Shown here: in pieces, positions 1,801 to 15,144 of the stretch
How the letters are laid out: each line of letters begins with the position of its first letter
Position numbering within the stretch: position 1 is the first letter of the stretch
From: a virus
Direction: 5' to 3' (one strand)
IMG/VR virus record: IMGVR_UViG_3300012984_000029
Span: 1 to 27,955 of that record
DNA: 27,955 nt
The notes under the pieces: model-generated
Seen by the model: the letters and a program-made list of their open reading frames with translations, nothing else
Told to the model about the DNA's origin: nothing
The model's database searches: none
Translations under genes and position numbers: made by a program

Positions 1801-1843
1801 TTGATACCTCGTTTAGTTGTTTTAATTGGGTGGTGCATGGGTA

Positions 1844-1871
1844 ATTATAATTAGGGGTCTGAGGCTGTCAA
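1844..1871 (-). promoter_or_regulatory. Consensus sigma70 promoter for the leftward 330-aa gene
   Basis: On the minus strand TTGACA (1871-1866) and TATAAT (1849-1844) are both perfect hexamers, separated by 16 bp. Transcription would begin near 1837, about 36 bases before the ATG at 1800. This is the best match to the bacterial housekeeping promoter that I found in the window. It lies in the gap between the 229-aa and 330-aa genes, so it would uncouple the 330-aa gene from the operon's first gene. Confidence 0.8.
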
Positions 1872-1889: not shown

Positions 1890-1905
1890 TGTGACACGCA
1901 TCACA
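1890..1905. promoter_or_regulatory. CRP-like operator palindrome, site 1
   Basis: TGTGACACGCATCACA matches the TGTGA-N6-TCACA core of E. coli CRP sites exactly and is flanked by T and A runs as in strong CRP sites. Its centre (1897.5) is about 60 bp upstream of the inferred start of the leftward promoter, the usual class I activation position near -61.5. The nearest rightward gene is more than 1 kb away, so leftward control is the simplest reading. A phage-encoded CRP/FNR-family protein with the same half-site is the alternative to host CRP. Confidence 0.65.
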
Positions 1906-1934
1906 AAAAGAATGCGGCCGCATGTGAGCCGCAT
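1904..1934 (-). terminator. Rho-independent terminator after the 229-aa gene
   Basis: On the minus strand ATGCGGC (1934-1928) pairs with GCCGCAT (1918-1912) around a 9-base loop, followed by TTCTTTTTG. It lies directly downstream of the stop of the 229-aa zinc-motif gene (1941). Its two ends are shared with the two CRP-like palindromes, so protein binding at the DNA and RNA hairpin formation use the same bases. Confidence 0.65.
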
Positions 1935-1938
1935 CACA
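1923..1938. promoter_or_regulatory. CRP-like operator palindrome, site 2
   Basis: TGTGAGCCGCATCACA is a second exact TGTGA-N6-TCACA core. Its centre lies 33 bp (about three helical turns) from site 1 and about -93 relative to the inferred start of the leftward promoter. Tandem sites near -61 and -93 on one DNA face are the arrangement of class III CRP-activated promoters. The site overlaps the left arm of the terminator stem and ends two bases before the stop codon of the upstream gene. Confidence 0.6.
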
Positions 1939-1940
1939 AT

Positions 1941-2630
1941 TTAGTAGCGTGGCTGGGCATTGATGATCCCCACCTCCGGCGCTTCCTCCGGCAGGCGGCG
2001 CACCTTCAGATTGAACCGACGCAGCGCGGGGTAGTAGGCGGGGATAAGGTGCCGCGCCAGCTCATGTCCTGGGTGCGTCTTATCGTTCAGCATGATCGCC
2101 AGCGCTGCCGGACGCTTGAGCACGTCACAGCCTGGATAGAGCCGCTCATTGTGCATGAGGTGCTGCGCATCACTGTACACCATATGGATGTTGCCACCAT
2201 ACGCGGCCAGGGCTGGGCACAGCGCATAGAGATACTGCAACTCCGGCGCTGGTGGTGCCTGTATGCAGATAATGGGGCTGGTGTCTGAATGATACAGCGC
2301 TGCCCTGGCCTCTCGTGTGCGCCAGCTCCTTTCACGGGAACACATCACACAGCCCGCATTAGTTGTATAGCGCGTCGTAGATAAACAGTGTTTGCATGGC
2401 CTACCTTCGAAAGTTAGTTGCCCTGTCTGCTCAGCTTTGTATCTCGCAGCCTGCGCCAGGTCCCTCGCTTCTGCTCCTGGTGTCCGCTTGCGATTCTCCG
2501 CAGCCTTTGCCGCAGCGCACGCCACACATCCCCCGTTACTGGTATAGCGTCCGGTTGTATTGCAGCGGAAGCACGCCCGCCCGTCATATTGTGTCAGCCC
2601 TGCGACTAATGCTTGCTGTCTCGTAATCAT
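1941..2630 (-). CDS. Protein with duplicated four-cysteine zinc motif (229 aa)
   Basis: First gene of the leftward operon, starting at ATG 2630 with an AGGAGA ribosome site. Two copies of a Cys-x2-Cys-x11-Cys-x2-Cys module lie at C20/C23/C35/C38 and C79/C82/C94/C97. They share the pattern GRxCxxC, an RYT turn with N two residues later, and GCVxC. Four cysteines in this spacing normally bind one zinc as a zinc ribbon or treble clef, so the protein probably carries two zinc sites separated by a basic, alanine-rich helical linker (about 39-78). The C-terminal half (about 110-229) is not recognised. Such modules occur in nucleic-acid-binding and nuclease-associated phage proteins, but no HNH or other catalytic motif is visible. 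It could be a regulator or DNA-binding factor. A promoter and a large inverted repeat lie just upstream and a terminator just downstream. Confidence 0.85.
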   Translation of the reverse strand: MITRQQALVAGLTQYDGRACFRCNTTGRYTSNGGCVACAAAKAAENRKRTPGAEARDLAQAARYKAEQTGQLTFEGRPCKHCLSTTRYTTNAGCVMCSRERSWRTREARAALYHSDTSPIICIQAPPAPELQYLYALCPALAAYGGNIHMVYSDAQHLMHNERLYPGCDVLKRPAALAIMLNDKTHPGHELARHLIPAYYPALRRFNLKVRRLPEEAPEVGIINAQPRY

Positions 2631-2660
2631 GTGGTGTCTCCTGTGGTGTATTGAGTTTTA

Positions 2661-2689
2661 ATTGTACGCTTTAGATTAGAGTTAAGCAA
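2661..2689 (-). promoter_or_regulatory. Sigma70-like promoter for the leftward zinc-motif gene
   Basis: On the minus strand TTGCTT (2689-2684), a 17-bp spacer and TACAAT (2666-2661) form a reasonable sigma70 promoter about 30 bp upstream of ATG 2630. The -10 matches five of six bases and the -35 three. The -35 lies one base from the outer end of the 41-bp inverted repeat, so a protein bound to the repeat, or its cruciform form, would touch this promoter. Confidence 0.5.
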
Positions 2690-2690
2690 T

Positions 2691-2817
2691 GCAGTAGTAG
2701 AATCAGGGAAAGTATAGGGTTTTTGAGTTTATCTATTCTAAATAACTAAACTCCCCCCTCATACGAAATATATAAGTAAACTCAATAACCCTGTACTTTG
2801 CCCAATTCTACGACTGC
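2691..2817. repeat. 41-bp imperfect inverted repeat with 45-bp AT-rich spacer
   Basis: The left arm is 2691-2731 and the right arm 2777-2817. Reading the right arm in reverse complement, 35 of 41 positions match, with shared blocks GTAGAAT, AAAGTA, AGGGTT and TTGAGTTTA. The 45-bp spacer is AT-rich apart from one C-run (2752-2757) and contains another TAAACTC. Coding frames stop here, and the element lies in the divergent gap between the leftward operon and the terminase operon. It could be an origin of replication, a paired binding site for a phage protein, or a cruciform. It is too long and too mismatched for a simple intrinsic terminator, and it has no T-tract at its outer ends. Confidence 0.75.
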
Positions 2818-2959
2818 TTCTCTAAACTGCTAGCGGTAGCGTAGGGCACACAGCAGGCTCACCCCCTGGGATGTCCGCGCGTGGCCTCTCTCAGATTCGC
2901 GCCCGCAACGTTTTACACTCTCGCAGTTAGAACCGAGTTTATTCTCTCGCCTTAGAAAC

Positions 2960-2975
2960 TGTGAGCCACGTCACA
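2960..2975. promoter_or_regulatory. CRP-like operator palindrome, site 3
   Basis: TGTGAGCCACGTCACA is an exact TGTGA-N6-TCACA core within the longer form ACTGTGA-N6-TCACACT shared with sites 4 and 5. I see no convincing -10/-35 pair directly over it. Its centre lies about 95 bp upstream of the inferred start of the rightward promoter at 3029-3056. Confidence 0.55.
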
Positions 2976-3028
2976 CTATCTGCGTGCGCTACGCTCGCGC
3001 TTCATTTCGTGGCCTCCTCTCATACTCA

Positions 3029-3056
3029 TTGATTTAAAGCACGCGCGGCTTATACT
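3029..3056 (+). promoter_or_regulatory. Rightward sigma70-like promoter P1
   Basis: TTGATT (3029-3034), a 16-bp spacer and TATACT (3051-3056) form a plausible promoter with its start near 3063. It would express the 54-aa protein and read on into the terminase genes. The last T of the -10 is the first base of CRP-like site 4, so a bound protein would block polymerase. Confidence 0.5.
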
Positions 3057-3071
3057 GTGATCTCCGTCACA
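3056..3071. promoter_or_regulatory. CRP-like operator palindrome, site 4, over the P1 start site
   Basis: TGTGATCTCCGTCACA is an exact core with the extended ACT flanks, centred on 3063.5 at the inferred +1 of promoter P1. CRP-family proteins repress from this position. A GTG codon inside the palindrome is in frame with the downstream small gene but is better read as operator than as a start. Confidence 0.6.
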
Positions 3072-3089
3072 CTACGAGAGACACGAGCC

Positions 3090-3254
3090 ATGAAGATCAC
3101 CCGACGCCCTGACCTAACCCTCATCCGCCTGGCGCGTAACGCGTGGCTGTATGTCACGTCGCATTCCATCGTTGTGCGCTTCTGTTCCTTCCGGTATCAG
3201 TGGGTCCGAGCCGAGCGGCGCGGCTTCCTGATGCGTGCCCGCAGTGACAAGTAA
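3090..3254 (+). CDS. Very basic 54-aa protein upstream of terminase
   Basis: This small gene runs from ATG 3090 to a TAA at 3254. GAGAG lies about nine bases upstream of the start. The in-frame GTG at 3057 is rejected because it lies within the operator and at or before the likely transcript start. The product begins MKITRRPDLTLIRLARNAW and is rich in arginine, with a short hydrophobic aromatic middle (YVTSHSIVVRFCSF). It could bind nucleic acid or pack against a membrane. I recognise no family. It is the first rightward gene after the control region and sits under promoter P1, which suggests a regulatory or early-late transition role, but that is inference. A chance frame cannot be excluded. 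Confidence 0.5.
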   Translation: MKITRRPDLTLIRLARNAWLYVTSHSIVVRFCSFRYQWVRAERRGFLMRARSDK

Positions 3255-3285
3255 CTCACCCATTATCTGAGCCACTCACGCCCGC

Positions 3286-3315
3286 TTTACACCTCCGGCG
3301 CTCCTGCCGTACACT
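3286..3315 (+). promoter_or_regulatory. Rightward sigma70-like promoter P2 for the terminase operon
   Basis: TTTACA (3286-3291), an 18-bp spacer and TACACT (3310-3315) place the start near 3322, about 30 bases before the small-terminase ATG. As at P1, the final T of the -10 begins a CRP-like palindrome. The shared sequence TAYACTGTGA makes P1 and P2 look like a designed promoter-operator pair. Confidence 0.5.
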
Positions 3316-3330
3316 GTGACCAGGATCACA
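3315..3330. promoter_or_regulatory. CRP-like operator palindrome, site 5, over the P2 start site
   Basis: TGTGACCAGGATCACA is an exact TGTGA-N6-TCACA core with ACT flanks on both sides, centred on 3322.5 at the inferred +1 of P2. It begins 37 bp upstream of the small-terminase start. Occupancy would be expected to repress packaging and structural transcription. Confidence 0.6.
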
Positions 3331-3351: not shown

Positions 3352-4149
3352 ATGACTCCGGAAACACGCGCATCACTCATCATTGACTACATGGACGGGG
3401 AACTCCCCGACGCTATGCTGTGCGCTAAATACGGTATCGACGCCGAACAGCTGGAGGTCGCCGTCTACATTGGCACGGGCAACATCATCAAGCCGGAGCC
3501 GATCACCCGTGGCATGAAGCGCGGCGTCAAGCACAGCATGGCGGTTGCACAGCTGGCCTCTGAGAACCTGACGCGTGAACAGATGGCGCTCAGCCCGCTA
3601 CAGTCCGCAGAGATCCACGAGCCTCTCACGTTAACCGCACGCTTAGAGCCGGACGCCAGGACACAGGCGCTCTACCTCAACGACGCGGAGCTGTCCTTCG
3701 CTAACAACGTGCTGCGCGGCATGAAGCCAACGCCCGCCGCCGCCGCGTCATTCGAAATCTTCAACGAACACCTGGCGAGCAAGAAAGCCGCCGAGCTGCT
3801 GCGCTCCTCCCATGTGATGGAGTACATCAGCAAGATGAAGGGTCGCTCCCTGTTCGCCCCCGTCAGGAACAAGGCATACCTGGAAGCCGTGCTCCACCAG
3901 GTGATCGACAGGGGGATGGAGCTGCAACAGGTCTACAACCCGCTAACTGGTAAGCCGCACATGAACGACAGCGGCCTCTCGTTCGTCTGTGATTACAACT
4001 GGAAAGCGGTTATCAGCGCCGCAACGCTCCTCATGAAGCTGAAAGGATGGGAAGGGAACCAGACGAACAACACTGAGCAGGAATCACAACGCGACCGCCT
4101 GCGCCGACTGCAAGCGAACTACAGCAACCAGGGAGACACCGACGAATGA
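3352..4149 (+). CDS. Putative small terminase subunit (265 aa)
   Basis: Small terminases bind phage DNA at the packaging site and load the large subunit. This call rests mainly on position: the gene ends in a 4-bp ATGA overlap with the large terminase. ATG 3352 is chosen because AGGA lies nine bases upstream; the in-frame GTG at 3316 falls inside operator site 5. Residues about 7-40 suggest a small helix-turn-helix (RASLIIDYMDGE followed by MLCAKYGIDAEQL). The middle is helical, with an alanine-rich stretch (PTPAAAASFEIF), and the C-terminus is polar and charged, as expected for the segment that contacts the motor. A length of 265 aa is long for the family but not exceptional. No alternative function is suggested by the sequence. 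Confidence 0.65.
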   Translation: MTPETRASLIIDYMDGELPDAMLCAKYGIDAEQLEVAVYIGTGNIIKPEPITRGMKRGVKHSMAVAQLASENLTREQMALSPLQSAEIHEPLTLTARLEPDARTQALYLNDAELSFANNVLRGMKPTPAAAASFEIFNEHLASKKAAELLRSSHVMEYISKMKGRSLFAPVRNKAYLEAVLHQVIDRGMELQQVYNPLTGKPHMNDSGLSFVCDYNWKAVISAATLLMKLKGWEGNQTNNTEQESQRDRLRRLQANYSNQGDTDE

Positions 4150-5774
4150 GCCGCGCTAACGTCTGGGAGTTCACGAACAGCTATGAGGACGTGTTTGCCC
4201 TCGCCGACTATCTCGACGCGAAAGCTAACAGCGTGGAGTTTACCTTCGAGACTGACGAGGAGATGGACACCTTTTTCCTCAAGGCTCGCGACGAGTTCGC
4301 GTTCTTCGCGCCTCGCTGCCTGACCCTCAAGTCAAAGGAGGGTGATCTCCGGCTGTTCAAGTTCAACAAGGCGCAGCGCTACCTTAACGCCGTCGCCGAG
4401 TGGCAGAAGCACCACACGGGAATGGTGCGCATCATCATCGTTAAGGGTCGCCAGCAGGGGATCAGCACATACACCGAAGGACGCGCATACCATCAGGTGA
4501 TCCACCAGGAAGCGCATAACGTCTACATCATGGCGCATGAGGATGCGGCTAGTAACGGCTTGTTTGACATGAGCAAGCGCTACCATGACAAGTGCCCGCC
4601 TGACTTGCAGCCTATGCTCGGTCACTGCAACGGCAAGCAGATGAAGTTCCCAGAGCTGGACAGCCAATACACCATTGCTACAGCTGGGAACAAATCGGCG
4701 GGGCGTTCGGCGACTGCTCGCTTCTTCCATGGCTCGGAGGTGGCGTTCTGGCCTAACGCGGCTGAGCACGCATCGGGTGTACTGCAAACTATCCCGCGCT
4801 CACCAGGCACAGAGATTTACCTGGAGTCAACTGCTGACGGCATCTCGAATTACTTCTATGACCAGTGGGAACGCGCCGGATCTATCGGCGACCTGATGAA
4901 CCCCGATTCATCCGGCTATGTCCGCGTGTTTATTCCGTGGTTCTGGGACGAGGGCTACCAGGTGGAGCCGCCAGAAGGATTCAAGCCGAGCGACGAGGAG
5001 CGCACGTATCAGCGCCGCTATGGTGTGAACCTTGCCCAATTGTTCTGGCGTCGCCTCAAGATCAAGGAGATGGACGGCGACATTCGACGCTTCCAGCGAG
5101 ACTACCCCGCGACACCAGAGGAAGCCTTTAACGCATCGGGCGACGCCATCCTCATCACGGGCGAGATGGTAGCCGACGCTAAGGCGAACTACCGCAGCGG
5201 CCAGGTTGTTCCAATCGGCGCTATCGTGATGGGCGTTGACGTGGCGCGAGAGGGTGACGACGCTACTTGCTTCTGCATCCGACACGGGCGAACGGTCATT
5301 CACAAGGAGCGCATGTACAAGGCAAAGGCGCACGTCGTTACCAACAAGCTGCTACGGCTGCGGGATGAGTACGGCGTCGATCACACCTTCGTGGATGCGA
5401 CGGGCGGCTTCGGTACTGCCGTCCTGGATATGCTGGAATACCAGGGGCAGCTCATCAACACCACGGGCGTGCACTTCTCCCAGAGCGCAACCGAGGAGGA
5501 GCGCTTCGCCAACGTCCGCGCGGAAATGTGGTGGAAGGTGCGCGAGTGGCTGGAGCGTGGCGCAGCCCTGCCGGATAACGAGGATTGGGGGCGTGACCTG
5601 TGCGCGCCGCAATATAAATTTGAGGGCGAGAAGATCCGCCTTGAGAAGAAAGAGGAAATCAAAAAGCGTATCGGTCGCTCGCCTGATATGGGTGACGCGC
5701 TGGCGCTTACATTCCGCTTCCCTATCATCGAAGGACTGACCAACGCCGGAGGGGTAGAGCCGGAGGTCGCATAA
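4146..5774 (+). CDS. terL: Large terminase subunit, ATPase-nuclease (542 aa)
   Basis: This motor protein pumps DNA into the procapsid and cuts the concatemer. The N-terminal ATPase has a Walker A-like loop, GRQQGIST at residues 101-108. A Walker B-type strand with the probable catalytic glutamate is FFHGSEVAFW (E198), and the coupling motif is IYLESTADG (about 224-232). The C-terminal RNase H-like nuclease shows the expected acidic triad: D365 in VMGVDVAREGDD, D417 in FVDATGGFG, and D514 or D517 in PDMGDALAL. All motifs are in the usual order and the length is normal, so the protein looks intact. It overlaps the small terminase by 4 bp (ATGA), suggesting translational coupling. It is followed after 18 bases, with a GGGAGG ribosome site, by a receptor-binding-type gene rather than by portal, which is a departure from the usual order. 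Confidence 0.95.
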   Translation: MSRANVWEFTNSYEDVFALADYLDAKANSVEFTFETDEEMDTFFLKARDEFAFFAPRCLTLKSKEGDLRLFKFNKAQRYLNAVAEWQKHHTGMVRIIIVKGRQQGISTYTEGRAYHQVIHQEAHNVYIMAHEDAASNGLFDMSKRYHDKCPPDLQPMLGHCNGKQMKFPELDSQYTIATAGNKSAGRSATARFFHGSEVAFWPNAAEHASGVLQTIPRSPGTEIYLESTADGISNYFYDQWERAGSIGDLMNPDSSGYVRVFIPWFWDEGYQVEPPEGFKPSDEERTYQRRYGVNLAQLFWRRLKIKEMDGDIRRFQRDYPATPEEAFNASGDAILITGEMVADAKANYRSGQVVPIGAIVMGVDVAREGDDATCFCIRHGRTVIHKERMYKAKAHVVTNKLLRLRDEYGVDHTFVDATGGFGTAVLDMLEYQGQLINTTGVHFSQSATEEERFANVRAEMWWKVREWLERGAALPDNEDWGRDLCAPQYKFEGEKIRLEKKEEIKKRIGRSPDMGDALALTFRFPIIEGLTNAGGVEPEVA

Positions 5775-14778: not shown

Positions 14779-15133
14779 ACCGCTGAACAAGAAGCTGCCT
14801 TACGGCACTATCCGTGGTCGCCTGGAAGGTTTTCCGCAGGCGCGATACTCGCAAGAGGACCGCCTGTACAATGCGCGCGAAGAACTGATCTATGATGGCT
14901 CTGCGCACATTGAACCGGAATTGCCACCAGAGCTGCCACCAGCGCCGGAAGTGCCACCAGCTCCACCAGTGGAACCGCCAGTGCCTGACGCACCTCCGGC
15001 ACCGCCAGTCGAGCCACCAGCTCCTCCGGCACCGCCAGTAGAACCACCAGCACCGCCAGCTGCCCCTAAAGCAGAAAAAGCACCTAAAGCGCCGAAAGCG
15101 CCTAAACTGCCTGGCCTGCCGACGAAAGACTAA
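14759..15133 (+). CDS. Proline-rich 124-aa protein
   Basis: The start at ATG 14759 is chosen for GGAG nine bases upstream; ATG 14765 (two codons on) is possible, while the longer open frame from 14639 lies within the previous gene and is rejected. Residues 1-54 are a polar, probably folded or adaptor segment (KKLPYGTIRGRLEGFPQ). Residues about 55-104 are almost entirely Pro, Glu, Ala and Val in PPAPPVEPP-type repeats, which would form a stiff polyproline rod. The end is a lysine-rich KAPKAPKAPK tail resembling the linker and tail of periplasm-spanning proteins. I infer a structural spacer or a virion protein with an extended arm. The DNA repeats make this gene prone to length change. Confidence 0.75.
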   Translation: MAMSENKPLNKKLPYGTIRGRLEGFPQARYSQEDRLYNAREELIYDGSAHIEPELPPELPPAPEVPPAPPVEPPVPDAPPAPPVEPPAPPAPPVEPPAPPAAPKAEKAPKAPKAPKLPGLPTKD

Positions 15134-15144
15134 GGAGCCGTACC

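Follow-up and report, generated by a model that had tools for sequence, protein, structure and literature searches.

Organisation of the divergent region

The DNA analysed (the window) is a stretch of 27,955 bases from an incomplete viral record, a virus fragment. Relatives were identified by blastn and tblastn: the Escherichia phages PTXU04 and Pondi (Xuquatrovirus) and Bas95, with 56-59% identity in the large terminase subunit and 86-87% in the major capsid protein. Terminase, portal and capsid genes are homologous and lie in the same order in all four phages. A terminase-based search of IMG/VR for closer relatives found only PTXU04 itself and distant phages. The features described below (Table 1) lie in a divergent region between leftward genes and a rightward packaging and structural operon.

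Table 1. Features of the divergent region. Offsets from PL assume +1 at 7 nt past the -10 hexamer.
Feature	Position	Strand	Remarks
Leftward ORF, 330 aa	808-1800	-	predicted to be driven by PL; no family match
PL promoter	1844-1871	-	TTGACA-16-TATAAT; 12/12 sigma-70 consensus; homologue of the PTXU04 gp91 promoter
Site 1, exact dyad	1890-1905	-	TGTGATGCGTGTCACA on the minus strand; centre at about -60.5 of PL; class I activator position
Terminator-like hairpin and T run	1911-1935	-	at the end of leftward ORF 1941-2630; stem takes in half of site 2
Site 2, exact dyad	1923-1938	-	centre at about -93.5 of PL, three helical turns (33 bp) farther upstream than site 1; overlaps the terminator-like hairpin
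First leftward ORF, Cys-rich	1941-2630	-	PTXU04 gp92 orthologue, 39% identity
Site 3, exact dyad	2960-2975	+	no convincing promoter found on either strand
Rightward promoter	3029-3056	+	TTGATT-16-TATACT; precedes the 54-aa ORF
Site 4, exact dyad	3056-3071	+	starts at last -10 base; centred on predicted +1; operator-like
Small ORF, 54 aa	3090-3254	+	own promoter and dyad; no family match
Rightward (late) promoter	3286-3315	+	TTTACA-18-TACACT; precedes the small terminase gene
Site 5, exact dyad	3315-3330	+	midpoint at the predicted +1 of the small-terminase promoter; ATG follows after 21 nt; position kept in five relatives
Putative small terminase subunit gene	3352-4149	+	opens the rightward structural operon; name based on synteny with PTXU04, Pondi and Bas95
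Large terminase subunit	4146-5774	+	

Enrichment of the dyad

Five exact TGTGA-N6-TCACA cores had been reported in an earlier note on this DNA; all five were found where it had placed them (sites 1 to 5), and a sixth is absent from the window. The number expected in the window ranges from 0.016 (base composition) to 0.032 (dinucleotide model), in agreement with the figure of about 0.03 from which the note had argued that the cluster is not due to chance. TGTGA is the sole word seen more than once among all 5-mer dyads of the form W-N6-rc(W) in the window, and the pattern read backwards does not occur there. The dyad is enriched above chance, as expected of a CRP-regulated promoter region. With up to two mismatches allowed, 16 dyads were counted against a chance mean of 12.4, which is no excess; the signal is therefore confined to perfect cores. 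The cores were also said to be non-coding or at gene edges, and each is indeed non-coding or within a 5' leader; the stop codon of ORF 1941-2630 lies two bases from the end of site 2.

The longer form ACTGTGA-N6-TCACACT proposed for sites 3-5 is shared by these three sites as claimed; the extra bases are asymmetric, and the ACT at sites 4 and 5 is the end of the -10 hexamer. This extended form is dispersed over many unrelated contigs.

Position of the dyads relative to promoters

Four of the five sites (1, 2, 4 and 5) lie at a functional offset from a sigma-70 promoter (-61.5, -41.5 or over -10/+1); site 3 does not. A centre at -61.5 is the classic position for class I activation by CRP. The PTXU04 homologue of PL (TTGACG-17-TATAGT) carries a one-mismatch dyad, TGTTAAGTGCATCACA, at exactly -61.5, and in both phages 18 nt separate the dyad from the -35 element. 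Among promoters of at least 10/12 consensus in four genomes, a dyad with at most one mismatch was found within 115 bp upstream only at PL (-60.5 and -93.5) and at this homologue (-61.5); the chance of the PTXU04 coincidence was roughly estimated as 0.0016. In Pondi and Bas95 the PL-type promoter and its site are absent.

Sites 4 and 5 on the rightward side both begin at the final base of the -10 hexamer (TATACT and TACACT, respectively), and a dyad centred on a predicted start is the geometry of a repressor site. Class II activation of the terminase promoter (-41.5) was considered and rejected: a -10 element at the needed distance was found neither in the window nor in the relatives, and the operator geometry fits.

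The early promoter is followed by a 15-nt leader, GCACCACCCAATTAA, which is identical in the window (1822-1836, minus strand) and PTXU04 (60558-60572, minus strand). It is kept though the downstream genes of the two phages differ, and may be a conserved RNA element. No gene is annotated in the small-terminase leaders of the relatives at a place matching the 54-aa ORF.

Conservation in related phages

The complete genomes of PTXU04, Pondi and Bas95 (56-62 kb each) hold exactly one exact core each, in every case immediately ahead of the small terminase gene. Core bases are conserved over spacer bases among these relatives: the terminase sites of PTXU04 and Pondi agree in 10/10 core and 1/6 spacer bases, and PTXU04 and Bas95 share 2/6 spacer bases. 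A weaker second dyad follows 25 bp downstream of the exact core in all three coliphages, at the position of window site 5; site 5 and its PTXU04 counterpart both lie 21 nt ahead of the ATG. In the Xuquatrovirus-type phages one half of this proximal site is degenerate (TATGC or TGTGC). At the equivalent place, the Vibrio phages 234P8 and 1.232.O carry dyads with one mismatch and differing spacers (GGTGACATTAATCACA and AGTGATTAAAGTCACA, respectively), and the TCACA half is invariant across six phages, these two among them. The distant large-terminase relatives (864 kb) contained no exact core, against 0.97 expected.

The window thus resembles PTXU04, Pondi and Bas95 in synteny, in its major capsid protein and in the exact core at the small-terminase promoter, and differs from them in the number of exact cores (five against one each), in an additional promoter-operator-ORF unit and in the identity of the second leftward gene. 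Judged by sequence, the dyads form a real and conserved, putatively regulatory feature.

Candidate binding proteins

The core had been described as that of E. coli CRP, and the window matches the CRP consensus exactly five times. A scan of the window and its relatives with a CRP matrix, which the earlier note had suggested as a check, was carried out with a matrix built from 13 classic sites. The five sites ranked 1-5 among all 22-mers of the window; in the whole PTXU04 genome the two highest scores fell to the -61.5 site and the terminase site, and Pondi and Bas95 both had their top 22-mer at the terminase site.

A phage homologue of CRP finds no support in the relatives: the cyclic-nucleotide-binding domain (PF00027) is not encoded in any of seven, and all matches to HTH_Crp_2 fall below the cut-off (best match, PTXU04 gp50; 22.7 bits against a cut-off of 27 bits). 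The only HTH_Crp_2-like protein of the coliphage relatives is a conserved 83-aa winged-helix protein (PTXU04 gp50, Pondi_00051, Bas95_0055), which also matches MarR_2 and Rrf2 weakly and stays below every Pfam cut-off except that of HTH_27 in Pondi. Homologues of gp50 were not detected in the Vibrio relatives that retain the dyad. Two alternatives had been put forward for the binder, the host cAMP-CRP or a CRP/FNR-family regulator of the phage; for the relatives, these results speak against the latter. Because a cyclic-nucleotide-binding domain is lacking and gp50 scores below the cut-off and is undetected in the Vibrio relatives, host CRP is the most economical binder, and the conserved cores, the class I position and the top matrix scores make it the better supported of the two. 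The gene for gp50 (14885-15136 in PTXU04) and its Pondi and Bas95 orthologues are annotated only as hypothetical; their product is a candidate phage transcription regulator.

Dyad arrays in other viral contigs

Tandem exact cores no more than 30 bp apart were found in at least 119 IMG/VR stretches, compared with 4 for a reversed control pattern, and these stretches fall into at least 49 groups of viral contigs. Each of the 32 whole viral records that were checked holds 4-15 exact cores, and none of them encodes an HTH_Crp_2 protein above the cut-off. The statement that no phage was known with as many CRP-type operators as the window does not survive these counts. Some arrays have a distinct AT-rich spacer (consensus TGTGAA-N4-TTCACA) and may belong to another regulator. 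Operators of CI/Cro-type repressors were rejected as the origin of the tandem cores, since no HTH family was matched by 52 nearby ORFs, the choice of which was crude. Helical phasing of promoters near the arrays comes mainly from one large group of similar contigs, and the 29 promoter pairs left after grouping are too few for a judgement.

Proposed control by host CRP and alternative explanations

The dyads are probably (probability about 0.7) sites for the cAMP-CRP of the host, which would activate the early promoter PL and repress the rightward late promoters. CRP bound to sites 1 and 2, at about -61 and -94, would contact RNA polymerase and, in class I fashion, increase leftward (early-side) transcription; bound to sites 4 and 5, it would sit over the transcription starts of both rightward promoters ahead of the packaging and structural genes and keep these promoters down until CRP is displaced or cAMP drops. 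Site 3 takes no part in this model. We infer from the DNA sequence that CRP binds here and which promoters it activates or represses, and the early/late timing from gene content only. Several points weigh against this model: a promoter with 12/12 consensus should not depend on an activator, part of site 2 belongs to a terminator hairpin, Pondi and Bas95 have neither the PL-type promoter nor its site, the proximal terminase site of the Xuquatrovirus type is half-degenerate, and the CRP matrix comes from 13 sites.

The main rival binder to host CRP is gp50. The dyads would then be operators of a phage-encoded regulator, such as a winged-helix protein of this kind, with a half-site and spacing like those of CRP, which represses the late genes and modulates the early promoter. 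Conservation of the 83-aa proteins with their weak HTH_Crp_2, MarR_2 and Rrf2 matches, the operator geometry at sites 4 and 5, and the frequency of tandem exact cores in viral contigs, some with an AT-rich consensus of their own, are consistent with such a regulator. We nevertheless consider it unlikely: the five-base half-site and six-base gap of CRP would have to be shared by coincidence, -61.5 is a hallmark of class I activation by CRP, and the protein has the distribution and the Pfam scores described above.

Much less probable is a mixture of functional and chance sites, in which site 3 (without a promoter) and site 2 (in the terminator hairpin) may lack a role. These two sites have no matching copy in any relative, and the hairpin accounts for the bases of site 2; against this stand the 0.02-0.03 exact cores expected in the whole window. 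It is likewise very improbable, and slightly more so, that the dyads close to the terminase genes serve packaging, binding of the terminase or autoregulation of the small terminase, with an accidental resemblance to CRP sites. Every relative does have a conserved copy immediately ahead of its small terminase gene, and PTXU04 DNA has been reported not to be circularly permuted (PMC6563267), so that a defined packaging end exists somewhere; however, sites 1 and 2 sit 1.4 kb away at the early promoter, the homologue of which in PTXU04 has its dyad at -61.5.

In lac-like class I and tandem CRP promoters, TGTGA-N6-TCACA is centred at -61.5, with another site some three helical turns farther upstream. 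PL resembles them in both respects, with a dyad near -61.5 and a further site at that distance, and differs in being a phage promoter of full 12/12 consensus, for which dependence on CRP is only predicted. In the literature searched for CRP sites in phages, T1 was the only direct case: the cAMP-CRP of the host directly represses its promoters pir, dam and recE (PMC6737242). As would be the case here, host CRP and cAMP act directly on promoters of an enterobacterial phage and tie expression to the metabolic state of the host. T1 differs in that the control concerns a regulator gene in lysogeny and is released by sugar, whereas in the window, from a PTXU04-like phage, the sites lie on either side of the divergent early/late region and show both activator and repressor geometry. 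The control proposed here would be a variant, not previously known, of phage control by host CRP. Nothing was found in the literature on the regulation of PTXU04-like phages, the biology of which has been described as enigmatic (PMC11990801).

With CRP-type sites conserved at an early and a late promoter, the model can be tested directly in the cultured coliphages PTXU04 and Bas95 on laboratory strains. If it holds, the phage outsources its early/late decision to the catabolite regulator of the host, and its behaviour should change on glucose or in hosts mutated in crp or cyaA. More speculatively, and with rather low likelihood, CRP-family proteins of the host might serve many phages, unrelated to one another and mostly uncultivated, as a common early/late switch, by which early promoters are turned on from -61 and late promoters kept off until takeover. 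Infection would then be timed by the metabolic state of the host, and the at least 49 groups with arrays would be instances of one strategy.

Other features of the divergent region

An imperfect inverted repeat (2665-2736 and 2772-2843; 72-nt arms, 74% complementary) lies in the divergent intergenic region of the window. In PTXU04, Pondi and Bas95 the corresponding place is also occupied by inverted repeats, with arms of 56-69 nt and little sequence similarity between genomes by eye. A replication origin or a genome-end structure is possible. The motif GTGGCCTC occurs at 2881 and 3009 in the control region of the window and once each in PTXU04 and Pondi, and Bas95 has GTGGCCCC; the first base of the PTXU04 record coincides with the start of the GTGGCCTC motif.
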